From contig CAIYLG010000034.1 of assembly GCA_903927025.1 (NCBI GenBank), positions 1 to 64,000 on the forward strand: a stretch of 64,000 nucleotides of DNA, given 5' to 3'. The notes under the pieces are model-generated. The model did not search any database, had not been told where the DNA came from, and saw only the letters and a list, made by a program, of their open reading frames with translations. The DNA is from an uncultured Armatimonadota bacterium. GTDB taxonomy: Bacteria; Armatimonadota; Fimbriimonadia; Fimbriimonadales; Fimbriimonadaceae. This document shows positions 4,903 to 28,305 of this stretch, one piece after another (the stretch's first letter is position 1; every line of letters begins with the position of its first letter). The translations under genes were made by a program, and so were the position numbers.

Positions 4903-4955
4903 TCGCGCCTACCCTCTTAACGGTCTCTTTATCCGTTTAGGGACTTTTGTTTGTT

Positions 4956-6110
4956 ATGCCAGACGCATCGCCACTCGTGATTTCAGTTGTCGAGGATCTC
5001 CACGCACGGATTCGCAGTGGAGCGCTCCCCGCTGGCAAGGGTCTCCCTTCTGAGCGAAGACTCGTTGAGGAGCTACAGGTCAGCAGAGGCGTTGTCCGAG
5101 CCGCCATCCGAAAGCTCGAGGAGCTTGGGGTTCTGTCTTGCCAGCCAAATTGTCGGCCGGTTGTTCGAGCCTTTGATATCGCTGCCTCGCACCAGACGGC
5201 GTCGAGTCTCAAGCACCTGGCTATTTGGATTTGGCCAAATCCGGGCGATTATAGTGCGAGTTCCATTCTTAAGGGCATCCAATCGACAGAAATTCCATCG
5301 GATGTGCGGCTTGTTGTTGCGAGCGTGCCTTACGCCTATAACTGGGAGGCGTGCCTCGAAGCGGAACGGGCCTTCCTCAAGTCTGTTGCCCAAGACAGCC
5401 ACACATGCGGATTGATCCTCTACTACCTAGGCGGCCAGCGCAATCGCGCCGCACTCGAGGAGATTCGCCTGAAAGGCATTCCAATGGTCTTTGTAGACCG
5501 ATTGCCGCCGGCTCCGTTTGATGCGGACCACGTTGGCTCTGACAGTGAAGAGGCAGCTCGCACCGGTGTGCAGCACCTCATCAACCTTGGGCATGAAAGA
5601 ATTGCCCTTATCTCAAACCAGGATGAAGTGTCCACCGTGTTCGGCCGCGAAGCCGGATATAGACGCGCCCTGCGAGACTCAAGAATTCCCCTTCGCTCCG
5701 AGCTTGTCCTTCGTGATACGATTGGCGAGCCGGACGGGGTGGATATGGCGGTTGAGGAGCTATTGGCCCTCGATTCGCCTCCAACAGCGATTGTGGGGAT
5801 TAATGACCACATCGCCCTTCAGGTCTACGAGTCGTTACAGTCGCGGGGAGTATCGGTACCACGCGACATGTCGGTTCTGGGATTTGATGGATTGCTTCGT
5901 TGGGTGCCTGGCGGAGGTTATCTCACAACCTCCTGCCAAGATTTCGAACGTATTGGTCAAATGGCCACCGAAATCATTCTAGAGCGGTCAAAGGAGACTT
6001 CTCCATTTGCGTTCCGGCACATCTTCCTACACGCGCCACTAAAGATTTGCGGTTCCACCGATGCGCCGCAATCCCCGATGTCTGTCCAGTGCAATTGCAG
6101 CGCAGATTAA
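4956..6110 (+). CDS. GntR/LacI hybrid transcriptional regulator
   Basis: About 384 residues. Residues 1-70 form a GntR-type winged helix (ISVVEDLHARIRSGALPAGK, LPSERRLVEELQVSRGVVRA, LEELGVLSCQP). From about residue 90 on there is a periplasmic-binding-protein-like effector domain of the LacI/GalR class (AARTGVQHLINLGHERIALI, FGREAGYRRALRD, PTAIVGINDHIALQVYESLQ, VSVPRDMSVLGFDG). This architecture is that of AraR-type sugar-responsive repressors. The ATG at 4956 is preferred over an in-frame TTG at 4947. It is the first gene of an operon, only 4 bases from the prepilin-like gene, and inverted GGTCCGGT repeats overlap its promoter, which suggests autoregulation. The ligand is unknown. Confidence 0.88.
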   Translation: MPDASPLVISVVEDLHARIRSGALPAGKGLPSERRLVEELQVSRGVVRAAIRKLEELGVLSCQPNCRPVVRAFDIAASHQTASSLKHLAIWIWPNPGDYSASSILKGIQSTEIPSDVRLVVASVPYAYNWEACLEAERAFLKSVAQDSHTCGLILYYLGGQRNRAALEEIRLKGIPMVFVDRLPPAPFDADHVGSDSEEAARTGVQHLINLGHERIALISNQDEVSTVFGREAGYRRALRDSRIPLRSELVLRDTIGEPDGVDMAVEELLALDSPPTAIVGINDHIALQVYESLQSRGVSVPRDMSVLGFDGLLRWVPGGGYLTTSCQDFERIGQMATEIILERSKETSPFAFRHIFLHAPLKICGSTDAPQSPMSVQCNCSAD

Positions 6111-6114
6111 ACTT

Positions 6115-7044
6115 ATGAAACATTCCAAGCGAATGGGCTTTACGCTCATTGAACTTCTTGTCGTTATCGCTATCATTGCGATCCTCGCCGCCATCCTATT
6201 CCCAGTTTTTGCTCAGGCAAAGAGAGCTGCAAAGGGTTCCGTTGCCATCAGCGATGCAAAGCAGATGGCTCTCGGTCAGCTGATGTACACCAACGACTAC
6301 GACGATAACTTTTCGCCTGTAGTCGCGTACGACAGCAACTGGCACGTCCTTCCTTTCAGCTACCTCCAGCAGCCATACATGAAGTCATGGGGCGTTCTTT
6401 TGGATCCAACCGGTCCAAATCCGACCGACACCAACGGCAACGATGAGAACGGCGGAACCGCCCTTTCCATCTATGGCCTTTGGGGTATGCCTCCAGAGCA
6501 GACCGCTACCAACGGTAGCTTCAGCAACTATACGTTTGGAACCTCCCCTCAGGGCGCAGCCATGACGGGCAACCAGACTTGGCAGTACGATGGCATCGGC
6601 GGTGTTGTAAACACCTCTAATGGCATCATCTGGTCTGCTTATGGTTACAACGCGGGAGGCACTCCTTCCCTCGCAACCACTGCAGTTGCCAACCCATCGG
6701 ACGAAGTCATGATCGCTCAGTCCGCAACGTGGGACTTCATGTGGCAGCAGGACAACGCAGACAGCTTCGACCTCTATTGGGGCTCCTGCACGTTCAACTC
6801 CTATGGATGCGCTCTCGTAACGACCGCTCCGGTTGCTAGAATGCGCGACACCGATGGACCAACCGTCGGCTTTGCTCCATGGCCAGGCAACGCGCCTACC
6901 CAGGAACCGAAGGGTCTCACTGCATGGGCTGGTGTTGACGGTCACGTCAAGTCCACTCCTTGGAGACAGTTGATGGGAACAACCGTGCCGATCAACAACG
7001 GCGCCGGAAAGGCCATCAAGGCATTCTGGCCAAAGGGCTCCTAA
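6115..7044 (+). CDS. Type IV prepilin-like protein (pseudopilin, DUF1559-type architecture)
   Basis: A 309-residue protein with a class III leader: MKHSKRMG followed by FTLIELLVVIAIIAILAAIL. Prepilin peptidase would cut after Gly8 and leave Phe1 and Glu5. Residues after the helix (FAQAKRAAKG, ISDAKQMALGQLMYTNDYDD) and the C-terminal AGVDGHVKS resemble the large pseudopilin-like family expanded in Planctomycetes and Armatimonadota. The globular part is rich in Tyr, Trp, Asn and Gly and contains a few Cys. The ATG at 6115 was chosen because it directly precedes the leader. No ribosome site is evident, so translation may be coupled to the regulator stop 4 bases upstream. It sits between a regulator and a lipoprotein/halogenase set. 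Confidence 0.9.
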   Translation: MKHSKRMGFTLIELLVVIAIIAILAAILFPVFAQAKRAAKGSVAISDAKQMALGQLMYTNDYDDNFSPVVAYDSNWHVLPFSYLQQPYMKSWGVLLDPTGPNPTDTNGNDENGGTALSIYGLWGMPPEQTATNGSFSNYTFGTSPQGAAMTGNQTWQYDGIGGVVNTSNGIIWSAYGYNAGGTPSLATTAVANPSDEVMIAQSATWDFMWQQDNADSFDLYWGSCTFNSYGCALVTTAPVARMRDTDGPTVGFAPWPGNAPTQEPKGLTAWAGVDGHVKSTPWRQLMGTTVPINNGAGKAIKAFWPKGS

Positions 7045-7046
7045 CA

Positions 7047-7256
7047 ATGAAGCGTGTCCTTCTAGCAGTCGCCGCCGCCAGCCTTTTGGTTGGATGCGGC
7101 TCCGGCGGCGGTTCGCAGCCTGACGAGAAGAAGATGCACTCGTTGTTAGGTGGTCCTCCCAGCCTCGAAGGGATGGCCAAGAAGCCGAAGGGAGCCAAAC
7201 AGCAGCAGGGAACAAATGCTCAACAGCCCCCAGCTAGTCCAACTTCAGGACAGTAG
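7047..7256 (+). CDS. Small lipoprotein
   Basis: A 69-residue protein with a lipoprotein signal peptide: MKRVLLAVAAASLLVGC has a lipobox LVGC with Cys17 as predicted lipidation site. The mature part is only about 52 residues, Gly/Ser-rich then Lys- and Gln/Pro-rich (KKPKGAKQQQG, QQPPASPTSG), so probably disordered. It starts 2 bases after the prepilin-like stop, so co-translation is likely. Function is unknown. Its place directly after a pseudopilin suggests a partner at the envelope. Confidence 0.75.
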   Translation: MKRVLLAVAAASLLVGCGSGGGSQPDEKKMHSLLGGPPSLEGMAKKPKGAKQQQGTNAQQPPASPTSGQ

Positions 7257-7312: not shown

Positions 7313-9046
7313 ATGCACGAATATTTTGACGTCGCCGTTATCGGCGGTGGCCCTGCTGGATCCACCCTGGGCTCCATGTTGAGAAAGTATGCGCCTCAGT
7401 TGAGCGTCGCCATCTTTGAGAAAGAAGTGTTCCCGAGGGAGCACATTGGGGAAAGCCTCCTTCCCACCACCGGTCGAATTCTCGAAGAGATCGGAGTCTG
7501 GGATGCGGTTGAGGCTGCTGGATTCCCGATTAAGATTGGCGCAACGTACCGCTGGGGGTCCTCAGACGATCTCTGGGATTTCAATCTCCTAGAAACTGCA
7601 GAAATTAACCCTACAGAACAGCGCCCCTCGAAGTTTGAGGGTTGGCGAATGCGCAGCACCTTTCAGGTTGATCGTGCCAAGTTCGACAAGATCCTGCTAG
7701 ATCACTCCAAGCAACTGGGCTGTCATGTTTACGAAGGCGGCGGAGTTGAGAAAGTCTTGGGTGAATCTGACGAAGTTTCTGGGCTCAAACTCGCCTCCGG
7801 AGAGACGATAACTGCCAAGTATTACATCGACGCATCCGGAAACGCCGGCATCTTGCGCAAGGCAATGGGCGTCGGAGTGGAAGAGCCACCCGCCCTGAAA
7901 AATATTGCAATTTGGGACCACTGGGAAGACGCCGAGTGGGCGGTAAGCATCGGCATTGGCGCAACCCGAATTCAGGTCATGAGCCTTGGATACGGCTGGC
8001 TCTGGTTTATACCGATCTCGGCGACAAGGATTTCCATAGGTTTGGTTTGCCCAGCGGAGTATTACAAGAAGTCTGGGAAGCGACCCGAAGAAATTTACAT
8101 GGAAGCCGTGAAAGCGGAGCCAAGAATTTCTGCGCTTACGGCAAATGCCAAGCCAGATGGGCATGTGAAGGCGACCAAGGACTGGTCGTTCCTCGCCAAG
8201 CAGATGGTAGGCAAGAACTGGTTCCTCGTTGGAGAGAGTTCAGGCTTTGCCGATCCAATCTTATCCGCCGGCATCACGATGACAATGATGAGCGCCAAGG
8301 AGTGCGCCTACACCATCAGTGAAATCGAGCGCGGCGAGCATGAAGTCGACTGGATGAAGCAGGTCTTTGGAGACCGGCAGGCTCAGCGCGTCAACCAACA
8401 TATTCGTTTTGCCAACTTTTGGTATTCCGGAAATGGTCACTTTTCCGACCTCGTCGACTACACCGCAGAAATTGCCAAGGAAGCAGGTTTCAAGACAGAT
8501 CCGAAGTCGGCTTGGCAATGGTTGGGCACCGGGGGATTTGTCTCCCTTGAGACAGCGGGCGCAGGTTTGGCAGGCCACAGTATTGAGCAGATCAAAAACA
8601 TCCAGGCAATGCTGTTCAACGAAGAAACTGAATGGGCGATCACGAAGGTGAATGTCTTCGATCTGAATATTGAAGGCGTCACCGCCGGGAGGACTCCGTT
8701 CTACGAAGAGGGACGAATTCGAGTGGGACGAGTCTTGAAGAAAGATGGAATGGACCTGCCAGTTTCAGGTGGATTCAAAATCATTCTTGACATCCTCCAG
8801 AAGGAGAAGAAACTGGGGCCCATTATCAACGCCTTACGGGCGGTAAGTGCCCAGTACGGTCCCATCGTTGCCCTAAGCGGCTTGGAAGCGCTTGAGGTCC
8901 TGCTGAAGGATGGCTGGATCAGTGGCTACTACTCCAGCGACCAACCGCTCCTGCGCTCGTCGGACATTCCGAGAACGCCGAATATCGACTGGAATAAGGA
9001 CACGGAAGACCCAATGGTGCGTTTGGCACAGGCAATCAGTGCTTAG
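7313..9046 (+). CDS. Flavin-dependent halogenase-like FAD oxidoreductase (paralogue 1)
   Basis: A 577-residue flavoprotein. The N-terminal FAD site is VAVIGGGPAGSTLG. REHIGESLLP and GFPIKIGATYRWG follow; Lys74 lies where the catalytic Lys of phenol/pyrrole halogenases of the PltA/CmlS type lies. GWLWFIPI fits the halogenase W-x-W-x-I-P signature, and FADPILSAG fits the F-x-x-P-x-x-S-x-G signature. Such enzymes use reduced FAD, O2 and halide to chlorinate or brominate electron-rich rings, often on a carrier protein. Halogenase activity is inferred; other monooxygenases share the fold. The ATG at 7313 has AAGGAACGAG before it. The next paralogue starts 13 bases after its stop. Confidence 0.8.
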   Translation: MHEYFDVAVIGGGPAGSTLGSMLRKYAPQLSVAIFEKEVFPREHIGESLLPTTGRILEEIGVWDAVEAAGFPIKIGATYRWGSSDDLWDFNLLETAEINPTEQRPSKFEGWRMRSTFQVDRAKFDKILLDHSKQLGCHVYEGGGVEKVLGESDEVSGLKLASGETITAKYYIDASGNAGILRKAMGVGVEEPPALKNIAIWDHWEDAEWAVSIGIGATRIQVMSLGYGWLWFIPISATRISIGLVCPAEYYKKSGKRPEEIYMEAVKAEPRISALTANAKPDGHVKATKDWSFLAKQMVGKNWFLVGESSGFADPILSAGITMTMMSAKECAYTISEIERGEHEVDWMKQVFGDRQAQRVNQHIRFANFWYSGNGHFSDLVDYTAEIAKEAGFKTDPKSAWQWLGTGGFVSLETAGAGLAGHSIEQIKNIQAMLFNEETEWAITKVNVFDLNIEGVTAGRTPFYEEGRIRVGRVLKKDGMDLPVSGGFKIILDILQKEKKLGPIINALRAVSAQYGPIVALSGLEALEVLLKDGWISGYYSSDQPLLRSSDIPRTPNIDWNKDTEDPMVRLAQAISA

Positions 9047-9059
9047 TAGTGGAGGGGCC

Positions 9060-10748
9060 TTGAAAACGGATGTAGCAATCGTAGGCGGCGGGCCAGCGGG
9101 GAGTACTGTAGGTATCTTCCTGAAAAAGCACAACCCTGATCTTCACGTCACCATTATCGAGCGCGAGAAGTTTCCGCGGGATCACGTTGGAGAGAGCCAC
9201 CTGCCGGCTATCTCCGCGATTCTGAACGAGATGGGCGTTTGGGATAAGGTAGAAGCTTCCGGCTTTCCCATTAAGGTCGGTGCCACGTTCAAATGGGGAG
9301 CGAACAAGGAATTTTGGGATACCGACTTCCTCCTTCAGGAGCAGTTCCAAGATGAAGCGCGCCCCGCAAAGTTTGTGGGACAGCGAACCCGAACCGCCTT
9401 CCAGGTGGACCGCTCGATCTACGACAAGGTGCTTCTCGACCATTGCAGGGAACTAGGCTGTACCGTTCTCGAGGAGACCAAAGTTACCAAGGTCGATCGC
9501 GACGGCGATACGATCACCGGCATAAGCGTCGCGTGCGATCCATCTCGACCGGTTGATGAGATGAGCGAAGTCGAAAGGATCGACGCGCGCTACTACGTTG
9601 ACTGCTCTGGGGATATTGGGCTGATTCGCAAAGCGATGGACATCGGTGTGCAGAGCCCTACTGCCCTGCGAAACATCGCGATCTACCGGTACTGGCAGGA
9701 TGCGGAGTGGGCAGTTTCCGTTGGGAACGGAGGGACTCGCATCCAGATTATGAGTCTGGAGTGGGGCTGGCTTTGGTTCATTCCGATCACTCCAACGAGA
9801 ACATCAATCGGATTGGTGGTTCCTGCGGGCTACTACAAGGCATCAGGAAAGACCATTGAAGAACTCTATGCTCAAGCGGTTGCAGAAGAACCCCTAATCT
9901 CTAGACTCATTCAATCTGCGACCCCCGAACCTGAGGTGACGGCAACCAAGGACTGGAGTTTTCTTTCTGACCGGCTTGTGGGACAGAACTGGTTCTTGGC
10001 CGGAGACTGCTGCGGCTTTGCAGACCCGATCCTCTCGGCGGGAATGACCCTGGCTCACACGAGTGCGAGGAAGGTTGCATTCACCATCCTGGAGCTAGAT
10101 CGTGGCGAGATTGATGCCGCCTGGCTCAAGAGTGAGTACGACGACGGGCACCGTGGTCAAATAAAGCACCACATCCAGTTCGCAGATTTTTGGTACACGT
10201 CAAACGGTCAGTTCACAGACCTTAAGGACTACTGCGCCGAGATCGCGGAGGCTGCTGGTCTGACTTTGGATCCTGCCACAGCCTTTCGGTGGCTGGCTAC
10301 GGGCGGATTCACCATCGACGAACCTGGAGTCGCGGCCGCGCTCACGTACCGTGTGTCTGGTTTGAAACTCGTCGCCGTCCACCTCGGTGCTTCTGCCCCT
10401 GAGTGGGAGCTTCAAAAGACGAACTTCTGGCGAATGGACCTCAACGGCGCAGTTGAGAGTGTGTTTAGCCGGTACCGAGACGGGCGAGTCATGCGCATTC
10501 CTTGCCTGAAGAAGGGAACGAAGACGCTTCCGATCGTGGATGCGTTCAGGCACTTGATCGTGGCCATGCGCAACAACTTTGACAGCATCATGATCCTTGA
10601 AGCATGCGTCAATTCAATGATTCAGCAGGACGGAATTCCTCCCAGTGAGGCTTCACTGTTGGCGATCGAAGCAATCGAGGCCCTTATCCTAGAAGGCTGG
10701 ATCAAAGGCAAAGTTGTTCCCAGCCGGCCCTTTATCAAGGTGAGTTAG
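9060..10748 (+). CDS. Flavin-dependent halogenase-like FAD oxidoreductase (paralogue 2)
   Basis: A 562-residue paralogue of the preceding flavoprotein. It has VAIVGGGPAGSTVG, REKFPRDHVGESHLP, FPIKVGATFKWG with Lys72 at the catalytic position, GWLWFIPI (W-x-W-x-I-P) and FADPILSAG. The TTG at 9060 is chosen because GGAGGGG lies 3-9 bases before it and the protein then aligns with the third paralogue (KTDVAI). Longer reading into the upstream gene would be out of family. The C-terminal third (about 380-562) is a separate mixed domain also seen in the other two copies (EEAFRWLATGGF type). It closes the operon and is followed by a strong terminator. Confidence 0.8.
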   Translation: MKTDVAIVGGGPAGSTVGIFLKKHNPDLHVTIIEREKFPRDHVGESHLPAISAILNEMGVWDKVEASGFPIKVGATFKWGANKEFWDTDFLLQEQFQDEARPAKFVGQRTRTAFQVDRSIYDKVLLDHCRELGCTVLEETKVTKVDRDGDTITGISVACDPSRPVDEMSEVERIDARYYVDCSGDIGLIRKAMDIGVQSPTALRNIAIYRYWQDAEWAVSVGNGGTRIQIMSLEWGWLWFIPITPTRTSIGLVVPAGYYKASGKTIEELYAQAVAEEPLISRLIQSATPEPEVTATKDWSFLSDRLVGQNWFLAGDCCGFADPILSAGMTLAHTSARKVAFTILELDRGEIDAAWLKSEYDDGHRGQIKHHIQFADFWYTSNGQFTDLKDYCAEIAEAAGLTLDPATAFRWLATGGFTIDEPGVAAALTYRVSGLKLVAVHLGASAPEWELQKTNFWRMDLNGAVESVFSRYRDGRVMRIPCLKKGTKTLPIVDAFRHLIVAMRNNFDSIMILEACVNSMIQQDGIPPSEASLLAIEAIEALILEGWIKGKVVPSRPFIKVS

Positions 10749-10771
10749 AACCTCAATTTCAACGTAGTGTG

Positions 10772-10811
10772 CGTCCAGGTTGGCCAAACAACCTGGACGC
10801 ATTGTTTTTTG
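10772..10811 (+). terminator. Intrinsic terminator of the halogenase operon
   Basis: GCGTCCAGGTTG (10772-10783) pairs perfectly with CAACCTGGACGC (10790-10801) around GCCAAA, followed by ATTG and six T. It is a strong factor-independent terminator for the forward operon and lacks an A-tract for the convergent gene. Confidence 0.92.
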
Positions 10812-10876
10812 AAGCCATCAGAATTCCTCGATTCCGGTCTTGAGTCTAAGACGCGGGAGCCTCTAATGTCTCAAGT

Positions 10877-12580
10877 CTAGATTTCGGATTCACTGATCTT
10901 GATGAAAGGCTTTGTCGGGTCGGCAGTCGCGCTAATCCATCCCTCTAGCATCATCGTCTCCATGGCTTCAATCGCTAGGAGTGAGGCGTCCTGAGGGTCG
11001 ATATGATCCTGAGCGATCATGGCATTCACGCTGTCCTCTAGAATTTTGATGCTCTCACTGTGCCGCTTGAAGGCATTCACAACATGCTTGAATGAATCGA
11101 TGAGGGGCAATGTCTTTGTGCCGCGCTTCATGCAAGGGATGGGAAGTACTCGGCCTTTTAGGTAGCGCACAAACTTATCCTCTTTGGCGCCCTCATAGTT
11201 GAGTTCCCAGATGTTGGTTTTCGATATCTCCCACTCTGGGACAGAACCGCCCAGGTGCACAGCAACGAGCTTAAGACCGGAAACTCGGTAGGTGAGAGCG
11301 GCCGCAACTCCCGGCTCATCAAGCGTAAAGCCACCCGTCGCGAGCCACCGAAACGCTTCTTCAGGAGCCAGTGTAAGTCCTGCAGTTTCGGCGATATCTT
11401 GGCAGTATTCCTTCAGGTCCGTGAACTGGCCATTGGATGAATACCAGAAGTCTGCGAACTGCATATGATGTCGAATTTGAGTGGAGTGGCCCGCTTCATA
11501 CTCATCCTTCAGCCATTGCTCCTTGGTCACTCCACGCATGATCTCGAGAATGGTGAATGCGGCCTTTCTTCCGCTTGTGTGAGCCAACGTCATTCCGGCG
11601 GAAAGGATCGGGTCGGCAAATCCGCAACTGTCTCCGGCAAGAAACCAGTTTTTGCCGGCTAGGCGCTTAGAGACAAAATTCCAGTCCTTGGTCGCATATA
11701 TTTCTGGCTCAGGTGTTGCGGTTGTCAGCAGATCCTTGATGAGAGGCTCCGTTGTAATCGCTTCGTGATAGAGTTCCTCTACCGTCTTGCCACTGGCCTT
11801 GTAATATTCGGCCGGAAGCACGAGGCCCACGGAAGTACGTGATGGCGTAATTGGGATGAACCAAAGCCATCCCCAGTCCAGACTCATGATCTGAATGCGT
11901 GTGCCCCCAATGCCGAGCGAAACGGCCCATTTGGCATCCTGCCAATATTGGTAAAAGGCGATATTTCGAAGCGCCGTTGGGGCTTCAATCTCGATATCTA
12001 GAGCTCGCCTAAGGATTCCAATTTCACCCGTGCAATCGACGTAAAACCGAGCCTCGACCCTCCCATCCTCGCCGATCTCCTCTCGCACTTCGGCGGAATC
12101 GGATGTGACATTGAGGCCCGAGACGGAATCGTCCACATGGTCAATCGATCTTACGTGTGCCTCTTCGAGAACGCGACATCCGAGTTCCCGAGCATGGTCG
12201 AGTAGGACTTTGTCGTACACACCCCGGTCCACTTGGAAGGCGGTACGGGTTCGCTGATCGACAAACTTTGCCGGGCGGGGCTCATCTCGAAATTGGTCGC
12301 CTTGAAGAAAGTCAGTGTCCCAGAGATCCTTTGTCGCTCCCCACTTGAAAGTGGCCCCAATCTTGATGGGGAAGTTCTCGGCTTCAACCTTGTCCCACAC
12401 TCCCATCTCGTCGAGAATTGCTGAAATAGCGGGCGTATGGCTTTCACCGACATGCTCGCGGGGGAATTTCTCGCGTTCGAGGATTGTGACATCCAGCGAC
12501 GGCTTGTACTTTTTGAGAAGAGCGGCAACCGTACTTCCGGCTGGACCTCCTCCGATGATGGCGACGTCAGTTTTTAGCAT
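10877..12580 (-). CDS. Flavin-dependent halogenase-like FAD oxidoreductase (paralogue 3)
   Basis: A 567-residue flavoprotein, visibly closer to paralogue 2 than to paralogue 1. It carries VAIIGGGPAGSTVA, REKFPREHVGESHTP, FPIKIGATFKWG with Lys73 in the catalytic position, WGWLWFIPI and FADPILSAG. The C-terminal region with EAFRWLATGGFTLDEPG is shared with paralogue 2. It converges on the forward halogenase operon and starts 72 bases after the stop of the TPR-sulfotransferase gene on the same strand, with no terminator seen between them, so the two may be co-transcribed. The two-plus-one paralogue arrangement on opposite strands points to local duplication. Halogenation is inferred from motifs. 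Confidence 0.8.
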   Translation of the reverse strand: MLKTDVAIIGGGPAGSTVAALLKKYKPSLDVTILEREKFPREHVGESHTPAISAILDEMGVWDKVEAENFPIKIGATFKWGATKDLWDTDFLQGDQFRDEPRPAKFVDQRTRTAFQVDRGVYDKVLLDHARELGCRVLEEAHVRSIDHVDDSVSGLNVTSDSAEVREEIGEDGRVEARFYVDCTGEIGILRRALDIEIEAPTALRNIAFYQYWQDAKWAVSLGIGGTRIQIMSLDWGWLWFIPITPSRTSVGLVLPAEYYKASGKTVEELYHEAITTEPLIKDLLTTATPEPEIYATKDWNFVSKRLAGKNWFLAGDSCGFADPILSAGMTLAHTSGRKAAFTILEIMRGVTKEQWLKDEYEAGHSTQIRHHMQFADFWYSSNGQFTDLKEYCQDIAETAGLTLAPEEAFRWLATGGFTLDEPGVAAALTYRVSGLKLVAVHLGGSVPEWEISKTNIWELNYEGAKEDKFVRYLKGRVLPIPCMKRGTKTLPLIDSFKHVVNAFKRHSESIKILEDSVNAMIAQDHIDPQDASLLAIEAMETMMLEGWISATADPTKPFIKISESEI

Positions 12581-12652: not shown

Positions 12653-14503
12653 TCACTTTGCGGACAAGGAGATGAATTCCTCAATCCAGGGTTCAAAGTG
12701 CCGCCAGCGTTCTACCGAAGACTGATACAGGGGCTGACGAACCTGCCATACGCTTGGGGTGATCACCGTACGTCGGCTGTCCTGCGGCTTGAGGCAGAGC
12801 TCGTTCCATTCCAAACCGCAGAATTCAACGATTTGGCGAGTGATCGCTTCGCTATCTGCCACAAGTGCTTCGTAATCAATTTCCAAAAAGCCCTCGGCGG
12901 GAAGCACCTTTCTCCAGTGATCCATCACCCGCAAATATTGACTATAGCCAAAGGCGATATTGGACTTGTTGTGCGCGGTATCGTTCGCGGCTCGGTTTGG
13001 AGTGACGTACATCGAGAGGCAGGTATCGATCGGGTTTCGACGCACGTGAATAATCTTTGCGTTTGGATAGGCGGTTCGAATGATGCCCAACATCGCAAAG
13101 TTGCCCGGCATTTTGTCTGCGACGCGCGGCTTGCCTGGTGCGATTTCATCGAGCAGGGCCAAGTACCGATTTGCGGCATCCGTTAAGCCCTTCCTGTTGA
13201 GGTCGCCTCGCGATTCGACGATGCAGCCGCGCCAGTTGTCGTTCCAAAAGGACTGCTCTCCCGCGACTCCGACCTCGGGATGGCACGAAAGGATATGTTC
13301 GACCAGGGTGGTTCCGGATCGAATCATTCCGACAATGAAGATGGGTACTTCACTTGGCAACCCTGCATCTTTGTTCTTGGACACGAAGTTCGAAGAATAT
13401 AGCCGTAGGATTTGATCAAGCTGGCTCGTATAGAGATCCCTGTCTAGATTCTTGCCTTTGAATTTGAGCTCGAATTCGATCAGATTCGCAGCGTCAAAGG
13501 CCTCCATCGAAGCCTGAAACTGGCCCAGATCTTCCATTGCCTTGCCAACTCCATATTGAAGATAGCTTTGCTGTTTGGTTGGCATTGCCTTGTCTTCAAG
13601 CAAGTGCCTCATCTTGTCAATCATCGGTTGGTCGGCTGGAGTGACCCGCTTGCTGTTGACAATTCCAAAGTATGGATATCCAAACTTGGGACGAAGGAAT
13701 ATCGACTGTTCAAATGCCTTGATCGCGTCATCCAGTCTCCCGACGCCCTGATAGGCGGTTCCAAGCATCGATTGGGCCTCGGAGTCTAGTGGGCTCTCTT
13801 TGGCTGCCGCTTCCATCTCCACAATGGCCAGTTCTGGCTGTCCATCTTCCAACAGGCTGCGACCCAGCAGCATCTTAGCTGGCCCGCTGGTGGGATTGAG
13901 CTCAATCGCTCGCCGAGCGCACTCTGCTGCAAGCAAAGGCGCATTTTGGGTGAGGAAGAACTGCGTTATGCTCAAAAGCGCCTCAAGAGGAGGTCGCGAT
14001 GCCGCGAGGGTGGTGCGGACGGTTTCACGCGCTTCCTCGCGCTTGCCCTGCATCAGAAGGCACTGGCTGAGATTGAAGCGGATTTGTATGATCGACGGCG
14101 CGGTCTCAGCCGCCTTGCGCAGATAAGCTTCTGCCTCGTTCAGCAGTCGGACGTCTTGGTAGCAGATTCCAACCTGGGTGATCCCTTGGGCATCCTGAGG
14201 GTTGGCTTCGTTCGCGCGGAGTGCGGCCTCAAGTGCCTCGATAGACCGCCCAAGCTTCTTGTAGGCGTGAGACTGCCAAAACGGGGCATGGAAGGAATTT
14301 GGCTCCATACCTTGGACTTCATCGAGAAGCCGAATTCCTTCCAGCGGGTCTCCGGCCTTTGCCTCAATCACGCCCAAGAGCAACATCGCCTTGGTGTTGT
14401 AGTGCTCCACGCTGAGAACTTCGCGACACATTCGTGCCGCTTCAGGGAGTCGGCCAGCGGCATGAGCAGCACTGGCGGAAGCTATAAGATTTGTGAGATC
14501 CAA
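12653..14503 (-). CDS. TPR-repeat sulfotransferase (copy A)
   Basis: A 616-residue protein. Residues 1 to about 340 are tetratricopeptide repeats (e.g. GRSIEALEAALRANEANPQD, LDDAIKAFEQSIFLRP). From about residue 385 there is a PAPS-dependent sulfotransferase domain: VPIFIVGMIRSGTTLVEHIL is the 5'-phosphosulfate-binding loop, HVRRNPIDTCLSMYV the 3'-phosphate region, and VWQVRQPLYQSSVERWRHFE the C-terminal signature. No signal peptide or membrane segment is seen, so it is probably cytoplasmic. It would transfer sulfate to a hydroxyl of an unknown substrate, which the TPR part may recruit. It lies upstream of halogenase paralogue 3. A full paralogue is at 26.5-28.3 kb. Confidence 0.87.
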   Translation of the reverse strand: MDLTNLIASASAAHAAGRLPEAARMCREVLSVEHYNTKAMLLLGVIEAKAGDPLEGIRLLDEVQGMEPNSFHAPFWQSHAYKKLGRSIEALEAALRANEANPQDAQGITQVGICYQDVRLLNEAEAYLRKAAETAPSIIQIRFNLSQCLLMQGKREEARETVRTTLAASRPPLEALLSITQFFLTQNAPLLAAECARRAIELNPTSGPAKMLLGRSLLEDGQPELAIVEMEAAAKESPLDSEAQSMLGTAYQGVGRLDDAIKAFEQSIFLRPKFGYPYFGIVNSKRVTPADQPMIDKMRHLLEDKAMPTKQQSYLQYGVGKAMEDLGQFQASMEAFDAANLIEFELKFKGKNLDRDLYTSQLDQILRLYSSNFVSKNKDAGLPSEVPIFIVGMIRSGTTLVEHILSCHPEVGVAGEQSFWNDNWRGCIVESRGDLNRKGLTDAANRYLALLDEIAPGKPRVADKMPGNFAMLGIIRTAYPNAKIIHVRRNPIDTCLSMYVTPNRAANDTAHNKSNIAFGYSQYLRVMDHWRKVLPAEGFLEIDYEALVADSEAITRQIVEFCGLEWNELCLKPQDSRRTVITPSVWQVRQPLYQSSVERWRHFEPWIEEFISLSAK

Positions 14504-26460: not shown

Positions 26461-28305
26461 CTACGATTCGAGGAGTTGGCGAAACGCACCGAGCCAAGGC
26501 TCGTAGTTTCGCCAACGTTCTACGGAGGTGGTGTAGACGGGTTGGCGGACTTGCCATTTGCTAAACGTGACGACCCTGCGGTCTCCCTTGTCCGGATGGA
26601 GGCAGGCCTCCTCCCAAGGCAGTTCGCAATGCTCAAGGATGGATCGGATCACCCTCTCCTGGTCCGTGACCAATTGCTCGTACTGAACATCCAGAATCGA
26701 GCCTGGTTCCATCACGTGCTTCCAATGCTCCATTGACTGACGGTAGACCTGGTAGGCATCCACGATCCGCTGTCGGGGCCGCCCAGATTCGTGTAGGGCA
26801 AAGAACGGCCTCATGTAAATGGATAGGCTCGTATCAATCGGATGCCGAGTGGCGTGAATGAATTTCGCCTTGGGGAAGACCATTTGCAGAATTCCCAAGT
26901 AAACGTAGTTGCTTGGGAATTTGTCCGTGACCCGACTGCGTCCCGGTGCGATCGACTGAAGGAGGTCCACGTAGCGGTGTCCGGCCATTGCCAACGCGGT
27001 TGAATGAATTTCACCGGTTGGGAGGTCAATGATGCGTCGTCCAGCATCTCGCCAAAAGCTCTGCTCTCCCGCGGCCCCCACTAGAGGATGGCGGGACAGA
27101 ATCTGTTCGAGGAGCGTCGTTCCAGATCTCGGCATACCCACGATAAAGATCGGTGCAACATCGTACTGCTCTGCCAGTTGGTTGGCTCGAATCTTTTCAG
27201 CGTCGATGATGGCGGCGAATTGCCGCGTACGCTTGGCAAATCGATCTGATTCGGCGGTGACCGGCTGGTAAGGTAGACCTTCTCCATTGGCGAGATCCAA
27301 ACGGGCGAGTGCCGTCTCGTAATCTTTGAGGTCGTCAAATGCCTTTCCGAGCGCGAAATTGCCGAAGCTCCGCTCCACTGGATCCAGTATTTGGGTGGCA
27401 AGAACCTGCTCCAATTTTTGGTAGGTTGGCCGATCCTCCTCGGTCACCTTTCGGTTGTTGGCGAGAAGGTAGTAGGCCAATCCTTGGTTGGGCTCAATAT
27501 CTAGGGACAAGTTCAGTGCTTTCTCCGCCTCCGAAAACTGTCCTGCCTCTTGAAGCTGGCTTGCCAAGAGTGCTCGAGGAAAGGCCGTGTTGGGAGCCGT
27601 TTCGATGACCTTTGAAAGGAAGAGCCTGCCATTGGGCCCCTGCGAGGCGGCATAGCTCGCATCAGCCCGCAGCTTAGCCGCGTTGGTCGACTGTGGATTG
27701 AGCTTAAGCACCTTCTCCGCGCAGTCAAGCGCTTCCTCTCCCAAATCCATAGCCAGGTAAGTTCGGCCAAGGTGGAGATGGGTTTCCCATGTAGAGGGAG
27801 AAAGGGCTATAGCCTGCTTGTAGGCACCTACGGCTTCAGCAAATAATTCCTCTCGCTGATAAGCGACGCCTAGGTTGTGAAAAGCGCCAGCCATCTGAGG
27901 AGATAGCTCGGTTGCTGCGACAAAGCTTGAAATGGCACCTTCGTTGTCTCCTGAGCCAAGTAATGCCAATCCCAGGGCCGCATGAACGTCGGCTCGCTCT
28001 GGAGCAAGCTCAATCGCCATTCGCCCGTAGCGAACCGCTTCTGTACCTCCGTCCGCACCGATAAGGAGGGTAGCAAGCCACTTGAAGCCGTCGACCTGAC
28101 TCGGATCAAGTCGTACTGCCTTCTTCAGGTAATGGACTGCTTCATTTCGGCGGCCTATTTGGGAGCAGATGGACCCTGCGAGGATCAGCGCGGGAGCGCA
28201 GGCTTCGTCGACTTGAAGTGCTCGTTGGCAGAACGCCATCGCGTCTTCAAGCCGTCCGGCTGAATGTGCCTGCCTTGCGGCCGATACCAGAGAAGTGATT
28301 GTCAC
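26461..28305 (-). CDS. TPR-repeat sulfotransferase (copy B)
   Basis: A 614-residue paralogue of the protein at 12.65-14.5 kb. There are TPR units to about residue 340 (GRRNEAVHYLKKAVRLDPSQ, LFAEAVGAYKQAIALSPSTW), then the sulfotransferase with APIFIVGMPRSGTTLLEQIL (5'-PSB loop), IHATRHPIDTSLSIYM (3'-PB) and KWQVRQPVYTTSVERWRNYE at the end. No signal peptide is present. It probably sulfates a protein or glycan hydroxyl before export. It lies between two secreted repeat or protease genes that could supply substrates, which is inference from position. Confidence 0.87.
   Translation of the reverse strand: MTITSLVSAARQAHSAGRLEDAMAFCQRALQVDEACAPALILAGSICSQIGRRNEAVHYLKKAVRLDPSQVDGFKWLATLLIGADGGTEAVRYGRMAIELAPERADVHAALGLALLGSGDNEGAISSFVAATELSPQMAGAFHNLGVAYQREELFAEAVGAYKQAIALSPSTWETHLHLGRTYLAMDLGEEALDCAEKVLKLNPQSTNAAKLRADASYAASQGPNGRLFLSKVIETAPNTAFPRALLASQLQEAGQFSEAEKALNLSLDIEPNQGLAYYLLANNRKVTEEDRPTYQKLEQVLATQILDPVERSFGNFALGKAFDDLKDYETALARLDLANGEGLPYQPVTAESDRFAKRTRQFAAIIDAEKIRANQLAEQYDVAPIFIVGMPRSGTTLLEQILSRHPLVGAAGEQSFWRDAGRRIIDLPTGEIHSTALAMAGHRYVDLLQSIAPGRSRVTDKFPSNYVYLGILQMVFPKAKFIHATRHPIDTSLSIYMRPFFALHESGRPRQRIVDAYQVYRQSMEHWKHVMEPGSILDVQYEQLVTDQERVIRSILEHCELPWEEACLHPDKGDRRVVTFSKWQVRQPVYTTSVERWRNYEPWLGAFRQLLES

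Follow-up and report, generated by a model that had tools for sequence, protein, structure and literature searches.

The described enzymes that most resemble those reported here are flavin-dependent halogenases (FDHs) of two kinds, the carrier-protein pyrrole and aryl halogenases PltA (5dbj), Mpy16 (5buk) and ChlB4 (7fco), and the antibiotic-cluster enzymes CmlS (3i3l), FasV (8zop) and CndH (3e1t). A further group, the peptidyl halogenases MibH, SrpI, MppI and ChlH, is proposed to halogenate Trp in a ribosomal peptide, with the FDH gene located beside that of the precursor (PMC12615548, PMC10858898). QhpG, LodB and GoxB, which like the enzymes of this study are CmlS-like flavoproteins, modify Trp in a protein. 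Here we describe three FDH homologs encoded within 5 kb of a 64,000-nucleotide stretch of DNA, hereafter the window (contig CAIYLG010000034.1, assembly GCA_903927025.1), from an uncultured member of the Fimbriimonadaceae in the phylum Armatimonadota. What is new about them is their neighbors, in that they belong to an FDH subfamily within the PltA/CmlS clade that has genes for polypeptides as its partners in the genome. The best explanation of the whole, to which we assign a probability of about 0.5, is that this subfamily modifies Trp or Tyr residues of ribosomal polypeptides, the substrate in the window probably being a pilin.

Homolog 1 (positions 7313–9046, forward strand) has 577 residues, with Lys74, WLWFIP at 229 and FADPILSAG at 312. 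Homolog 2 (9060–10748, forward strand) has 562 residues with Lys72 and a TTG start behind GGAGG, and homolog 3 (10877–12580, reverse strand) has 567 residues with Lys73 and is nearest to homolog 2 (69% identity, compared to 47% between homologs 1 and 2 and 45.5% between 1 and 3). An earlier note on this DNA, made from the sequence alone, had proposed three halogenase-like paralogs here, two in tandem on the forward strand and one on the reverse, and full-length open reading frames were indeed found at these positions and in these orientations. The motifs that it listed were read in each of the three proteins, as GGGPAG, FPIK[IV]GA, WLWFIP and FADPILSAG, and the Lys that it placed at 72–74 falls in the same alignment column as the Lys of five halogenases of solved structure. 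All three proteins match the Pfam family Trp_halogenase (PF04820) with E values of 2e-29 to 5e-34, and homolog 3 matches FasV (4e-46), PltA (6e-46) and CmlS (2e-42) in the PDB, indicating that they are true homologs and not chance motif matches. Among solved structures, FasV, PltA, Mpy16, ChlB4 and CmlS are the nearest, and PltA, CmlS and FasV are far closer than the Trp halogenases of the MibH/PrnA type; MibH (5uao) gave only a weak match (E 9e-9), confined to the N-terminal FAD motif region. SrpI, for its part, was discovered by using MibH as bait, and its model was based on MibH. Scores lay under the cut-offs of the curated models for CmlS (NF033113, 174–175 versus 900 bits) and the geranylgeranyl reductase family (TIGR02032, 77–98 versus 158.8 bits).

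Most features of the three proteins extend to the family as a whole. In an alignment of 154 distinct relatives, together with the five solved halogenases and three QhpG orthologs, the Lys at the catalytic position was invariant (154/154), as were W238, W240 and I242 of the WxWxI motif, while the Pro that follows was kept in 149; F-A-D-P-x-L-x-x-G was also invariant. A quick tree, which has long reference branches and is not a careful reconstruction, placed the family in one clade separate from the five solved halogenases and from QhpG. An AlphaFold2 model of homolog 3, built from 47 aligned family members, reached a mean predicted local distance difference test score (pLDDT) of 85.3 and a predicted template modeling score of 0.87 (prediction from the single sequence was of no use, with a pLDDT of 36). 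A fold search with this model returned FasV (Z 42.0), CndH (40.3), PltA (36.4) and CmlS (35.9), with Mpy16 also among the best, and the hydroxybenzoate hydroxylases at Z about 33–34, a modest margin below the halogenases at 36–42. For the catalytic domain, the folds of FasV and CndH are the closest. PltA, Mpy16 and ChlB4 share the fold, GxGxxG, the Lys, WxWxIP and FxxPxxSxG at 25–30% identity, but the window family carries about 110 additional residues as a C-terminal domain, and the likeness to CmlS spans this domain as well, covering nearly the whole model (residues 3–559). The strand-strand-strand-helix-helix-helix order of the domain had raised the idea of a PqqD/RRE-like peptide-binding domain, which had no Pfam support and which we do not claim, because CmlS aligns over the same region. 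The proposed kinship with PltA and CmlS thus holds in sequence, tree and fold alike. Given the invariant motifs and the halogenase-like fold, the enzyme type is well supported, and we consider it very likely that all three belong to an uncharacterized subfamily within the PltA/CmlS clade and work as FADH2-dependent enzymes of the halogenase type. Their product is likely to arise by addition of a halogen rather than of oxygen.

The cyanobacterial members of the family are accompanied by a small peptide of 60–102 residues, consisting of 3–7 tandem copies of HTWTE[NT]LDI[SA] and encoded directly upstream of the FDH. This repeat peptide was present in 14 of 391 cyanobacterial genomes of the order, and an FDH adjoined it in all 14 (one cut by a contig end), giving an association with a Fisher p of 7e-24. 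An FDH without the repeat occurred in two further genomes, both of the Okeania type, where each of the two FDH copies comes after a PEP-CTERM protein, one containing HTWSGDL or HTWAGDV and the other having no HTW motif. Adjacent same-strand genes encode HTWIGDL in Alteromonadaceae-type metagenome-assembled genomes (MAGs), HSWFGDV in Pelagimonas and SSWASDL in one Phycisphaerales genome, so that the motif of these exported neighbors, [HS][TS]Wxx[DN][LV], resembles the cyanobacterial repeat. In three cases, the Okeania, gammaproteobacterial and alphaproteobacterial examples, Pfam matches confirmed the presence of P-domains (PF01483). When every reading frame in the vicinity of the FDHs was scanned for [HSN][TS]Wxx[DNE][LIV], the matches were these adjacent same-strand genes plus only two others. 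Every HTW-repeat peptide seen is also preceded by a gene for a 247-residue protein that contains an HxxEDDHHWLWF stretch and matches nothing in Pfam or NCBIfam (loci L288-L298, e.g. L288:3483-4226), and which, as a guess from this stretch alone, might be a heme-oxygenase-like diiron protein.

In Fimbriimonas, the genus to which the source genome is taken to belong, the recurrent neighbor is a pilin gene. The window cassette begins with a regulator that combines a GntR helix-turn-helix and a LacI-type sugar-binding domain (4947–6110, forward strand; Pfam GntR and Peripla_BP_3), followed by a prepilin-like protein with the N-terminus FTLIELLVVIAIIAILAAILFPVFAQAK (6115–7044, forward strand; PF07963), which is the candidate substrate, and by a 69-residue lipoprotein with the lipobox LLVGC (7047–7256, forward strand) between the pilin and homolog 1. 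A TPR-repeat sulfotransferase (PF13469; 12653–14503) is encoded on the reverse strand, as is homolog 3, about 70 bp upstream of the latter. Regulator, prepilin, small lipoprotein and FDH make up the Fimbriimonas cassette generally, often with the TPR-sulfotransferase, and gene clustering around the FDH paralogs of the source genome returned the prepilin-like protein, a LacI or GntR-LacI regulator and the TPR-sulfotransferase as recurrent companions. Across 20 genomes of the genus, a pilin lay within 4 kb of the FDH at 53 of 90 loci, a LacI-type gene at 44 and a TPR-sulfotransferase at 21; the pilin figure is an undercount, since later inspection revealed more pilins, and these and the other locus counts are not numbers of independent events, as some loci derive from the same genomes. 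In the source genome itself, 8 of 10 FDH loci had a pilin within about 1.5 kb, compared to 0.07 expected per locus from the 59 pilins of that genome (p about 2e-8). The window cassette is kept in four further genomes (five in all), with pilin orthologs 66–81% identical, and across genomes each FDH is paired with its own pilin (r 0.55, versus 0.08 ± 0.06 in shuffles).

The small lipoprotein gene occupies the gap of about 220–440 bp between pilin and FDH. It was considered as a halogenase-specific partner or substrate and set aside, the examples seen having no conserved aromatic residue; because 25 of the 42 pilins that have no FDH are likewise followed by it, we regard it as a general pilin companion. 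Such genes, encoding about 65–100 residues with a lipobox and a Pro-rich tail, follow prepilins throughout Fimbriimonas (window 7047-7256; loci L060, L074, L092, L119 and others). At least 59 prepilins of the source genome (contigs C15, C21, C51 and others) have a nearly identical N-terminus (FTLIELLVVIAIIAILAAILFPVFAQAK) and are hardly alike in the remainder. The TPR-sulfotransferases, of which the genome has about 22 (in the window, 12653-14503 and 26461-28305), often occur near prepilin genes even where there is no FDH, as if the pilins were also sulfated. At one Phycisphaerales locus (L189:5275-11067), genes for a secreted protein, for two FDHs and for a TPR-sulfotransferase lie consecutively, which means that the pairing of FDH and sulfotransferase recurs in another phylum. 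In five genomes, one FDH group adjoins a gene for a cation/proton-antiporter-like membrane protein, and not a pilin (L053, L075, L102, L121, L123).

The source genome (5.25 Mb in 66 contigs) encodes 14 FDH paralogs, and the number per genome ranges from 0 to 18 among the 20 genomes of the genus. A close family member was found in 34 of 291 genomes of the phylum; the named relatives of homolog 3 at 74–78% identity are from Fimbriimonas and other Armatimonadetes MAGs. Outside the Armatimonadota, members of the family are found in Phycisphaerales and other Planctomycetota, in cyanobacteria and in a few gamma- and alphaproteobacterial MAGs; the plasmid collection held only distant relatives, with an identity of at most about 33%. 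We found no publication on halogenases in connection with Fimbriimonas, on flavin-dependent halogenases in connection with Armatimonadetes, or on this FDH family, in a search that covered few subscription journals. The genome paper of F. ginsengisoli names 79 PulG-type pseudopilin genes and no halogenase (PMC4072686). The earlier note had also pointed to the lack of a nearby polyketide synthase (PKS) or nonribosomal peptide synthetase (NRPS) and had suggested an undescribed substrate. This part is apt, and no NRPS condensation domain was found in the whole genome. A local three-enzyme cluster for a single metabolite is not what the locus represents, however, given 14 paralogs, a lineage-wide family and genes that travel with pilin cassettes.

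Because the FDH genes travel with pilin cassettes, Trp-repeat peptides and PEP-CTERM or P-domain proteins, the substrate of the family is probably a ribosomally made polypeptide. This suggests that the family modifies proteins rather than making small-molecule antibiotics. Modification of Trp or Tyr is proposed because an exported or repeat polypeptide adjoins the enzyme and Trp is common to the motifs, and of the two residues Trp is the more probable. The weakest step is the identification of the adjacent pilin as the target in the window, which we hold tentatively and at slightly less than even odds. According to this proposal, a flavin hydroperoxide would generate hypohalous acid, which the Lys would relay to an aromatic side chain of the polypeptide, presumably in the cytoplasm before export. 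In the window, the adjacent pilin would be the target, the TPR-sulfotransferase may act as a second tailoring enzyme, and expression may answer to the LacI/GntR-type regulator. This logic would be that proposed for the peptidyl halogenases, and the cyanobacterial relatives have a putative precursor gene beside the FDH, whereas the window has a pilin and not a short precursor; the window family also differs in belonging to the PltA/CmlS clade and in being paired with pilins, P-domain proteins or HTW repeats. Unlike PltA, Mpy16 and ChlB4, it has no carrier protein or NRPS and is instead surrounded by pilin, repeat-peptide or P-domain genes, and unlike CmlS, FasV and CndH, it is not part of an antibiotic cluster at the window locus.

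A number of results weigh against this proposal. Conservation of a neighborhood does not prove a substrate. In the Armatimonadota, about one third of the FDH loci lack a nearby gene for a pilin, a LacI-type regulator or a sulfotransferase, and most Phycisphaerales FDH loci are located among housekeeping genes with no evident partner. FDHs and pilins showed no correlated divergence within single genomes, the FDH-linked pilins were not enriched in Trp or Tyr compared to unlinked pilins of the same genome, and HTW-type motifs in pilins were at background (2/58 linked, 3/59 unlinked). HT[WY]xGDL is usual in P-domains, which makes the P-domain match the weaker evidence and leaves most of the weight on the repeat peptides. 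Finally, the Ser of FxxPxxSxG is Ser in 71, Ala in 81 and Thr in 2 of the 154 family members.

The Ser to Ala change, together with the large number of paralogs, could be expected of enzymes that descend from halogenases but have lost the halogenating activity, such as flavin reductases or oxidases that have become part of envelope gene cassettes. With Lys and WxWxI invariant in all 154 members and the full motif present in all three window proteins, we consider such a loss of activity quite improbable. It is also conceivable, although unlikely, that the enzymes retain the polypeptide pairing but act as monooxygenases in the manner of QhpG or LodB, so that Trp (or Tyr) would be hydroxylated or crosslinked and not halogenated. 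QhpG, a peptidyl-Trp dihydroxylase, is structurally nearest to CmlS (PMC7876137), and it is the second-best NCBIfam match of the window proteins, with LodB listed too. These scores are nevertheless far under the curated cut-offs (113–131 versus 240 bits for QhpG, NF049967; 86–92 versus 400 bits for LodB, NF038171), and PltA and CmlS are much nearer to the window proteins than the QhpG structure (7CTQ). Moreover, the three QhpG orthologs have both Trp residues but are without three features conserved in the family, namely the catalytic Lys, the FxxPxxSxG motif and the IP of WxWxIP.

A different possibility is that the enzymes act in trans on free phenols, pyrroles or indoles, contributing to a surface pigment or signal, with the pilin neighborhood reflecting shared regulation or gene islands. 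Many known FDHs use free substrates, numerous loci have a pilin-lipoprotein pair but no FDH, and the Phycisphaerales members among housekeeping genes would also fit. This explanation is improbable, however, in view of the condensation domain missing from the genome and of the FDH loci themselves, which show no recurrent PKS/NRPS or phenol/pyrrole pathway genes alongside, and it would not lead us to expect the one-to-one pairing with the cyanobacterial Trp-repeat peptides.

Modification of ribosomal polypeptides, our preferred explanation, can be tested directly, as the cyanobacterial repeat peptide with its 3–7 motif copies is a small, ready substrate, and there is demand for sequence-directed Trp halogenases as protein-labeling tools. 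In its broadest form the proposal would extend to a widespread Trp halogenation of exported proteins, namely the pilins of Fimbriimonas, the P-domain and PEP-CTERM proteins of proteobacteria and Okeania, and the HTWTENLDI repeat peptides of filamentous cyanobacteria, an extension that we regard as possible but rather doubtful. If true, it would represent an undescribed and widespread protein modification of bacterial surfaces, for which a single Fimbriimonas genome can encode as many as 18 enzymes, many of them alongside a pilin of their own. The peptide halogenases known so far act on short precursors of ribosomally synthesized and post-translationally modified peptides and belong to the Trp-halogenase branch; the family described here would add a second branch, in which bacteria halogenate, or otherwise oxidize, structural surface proteins on a broad scale.

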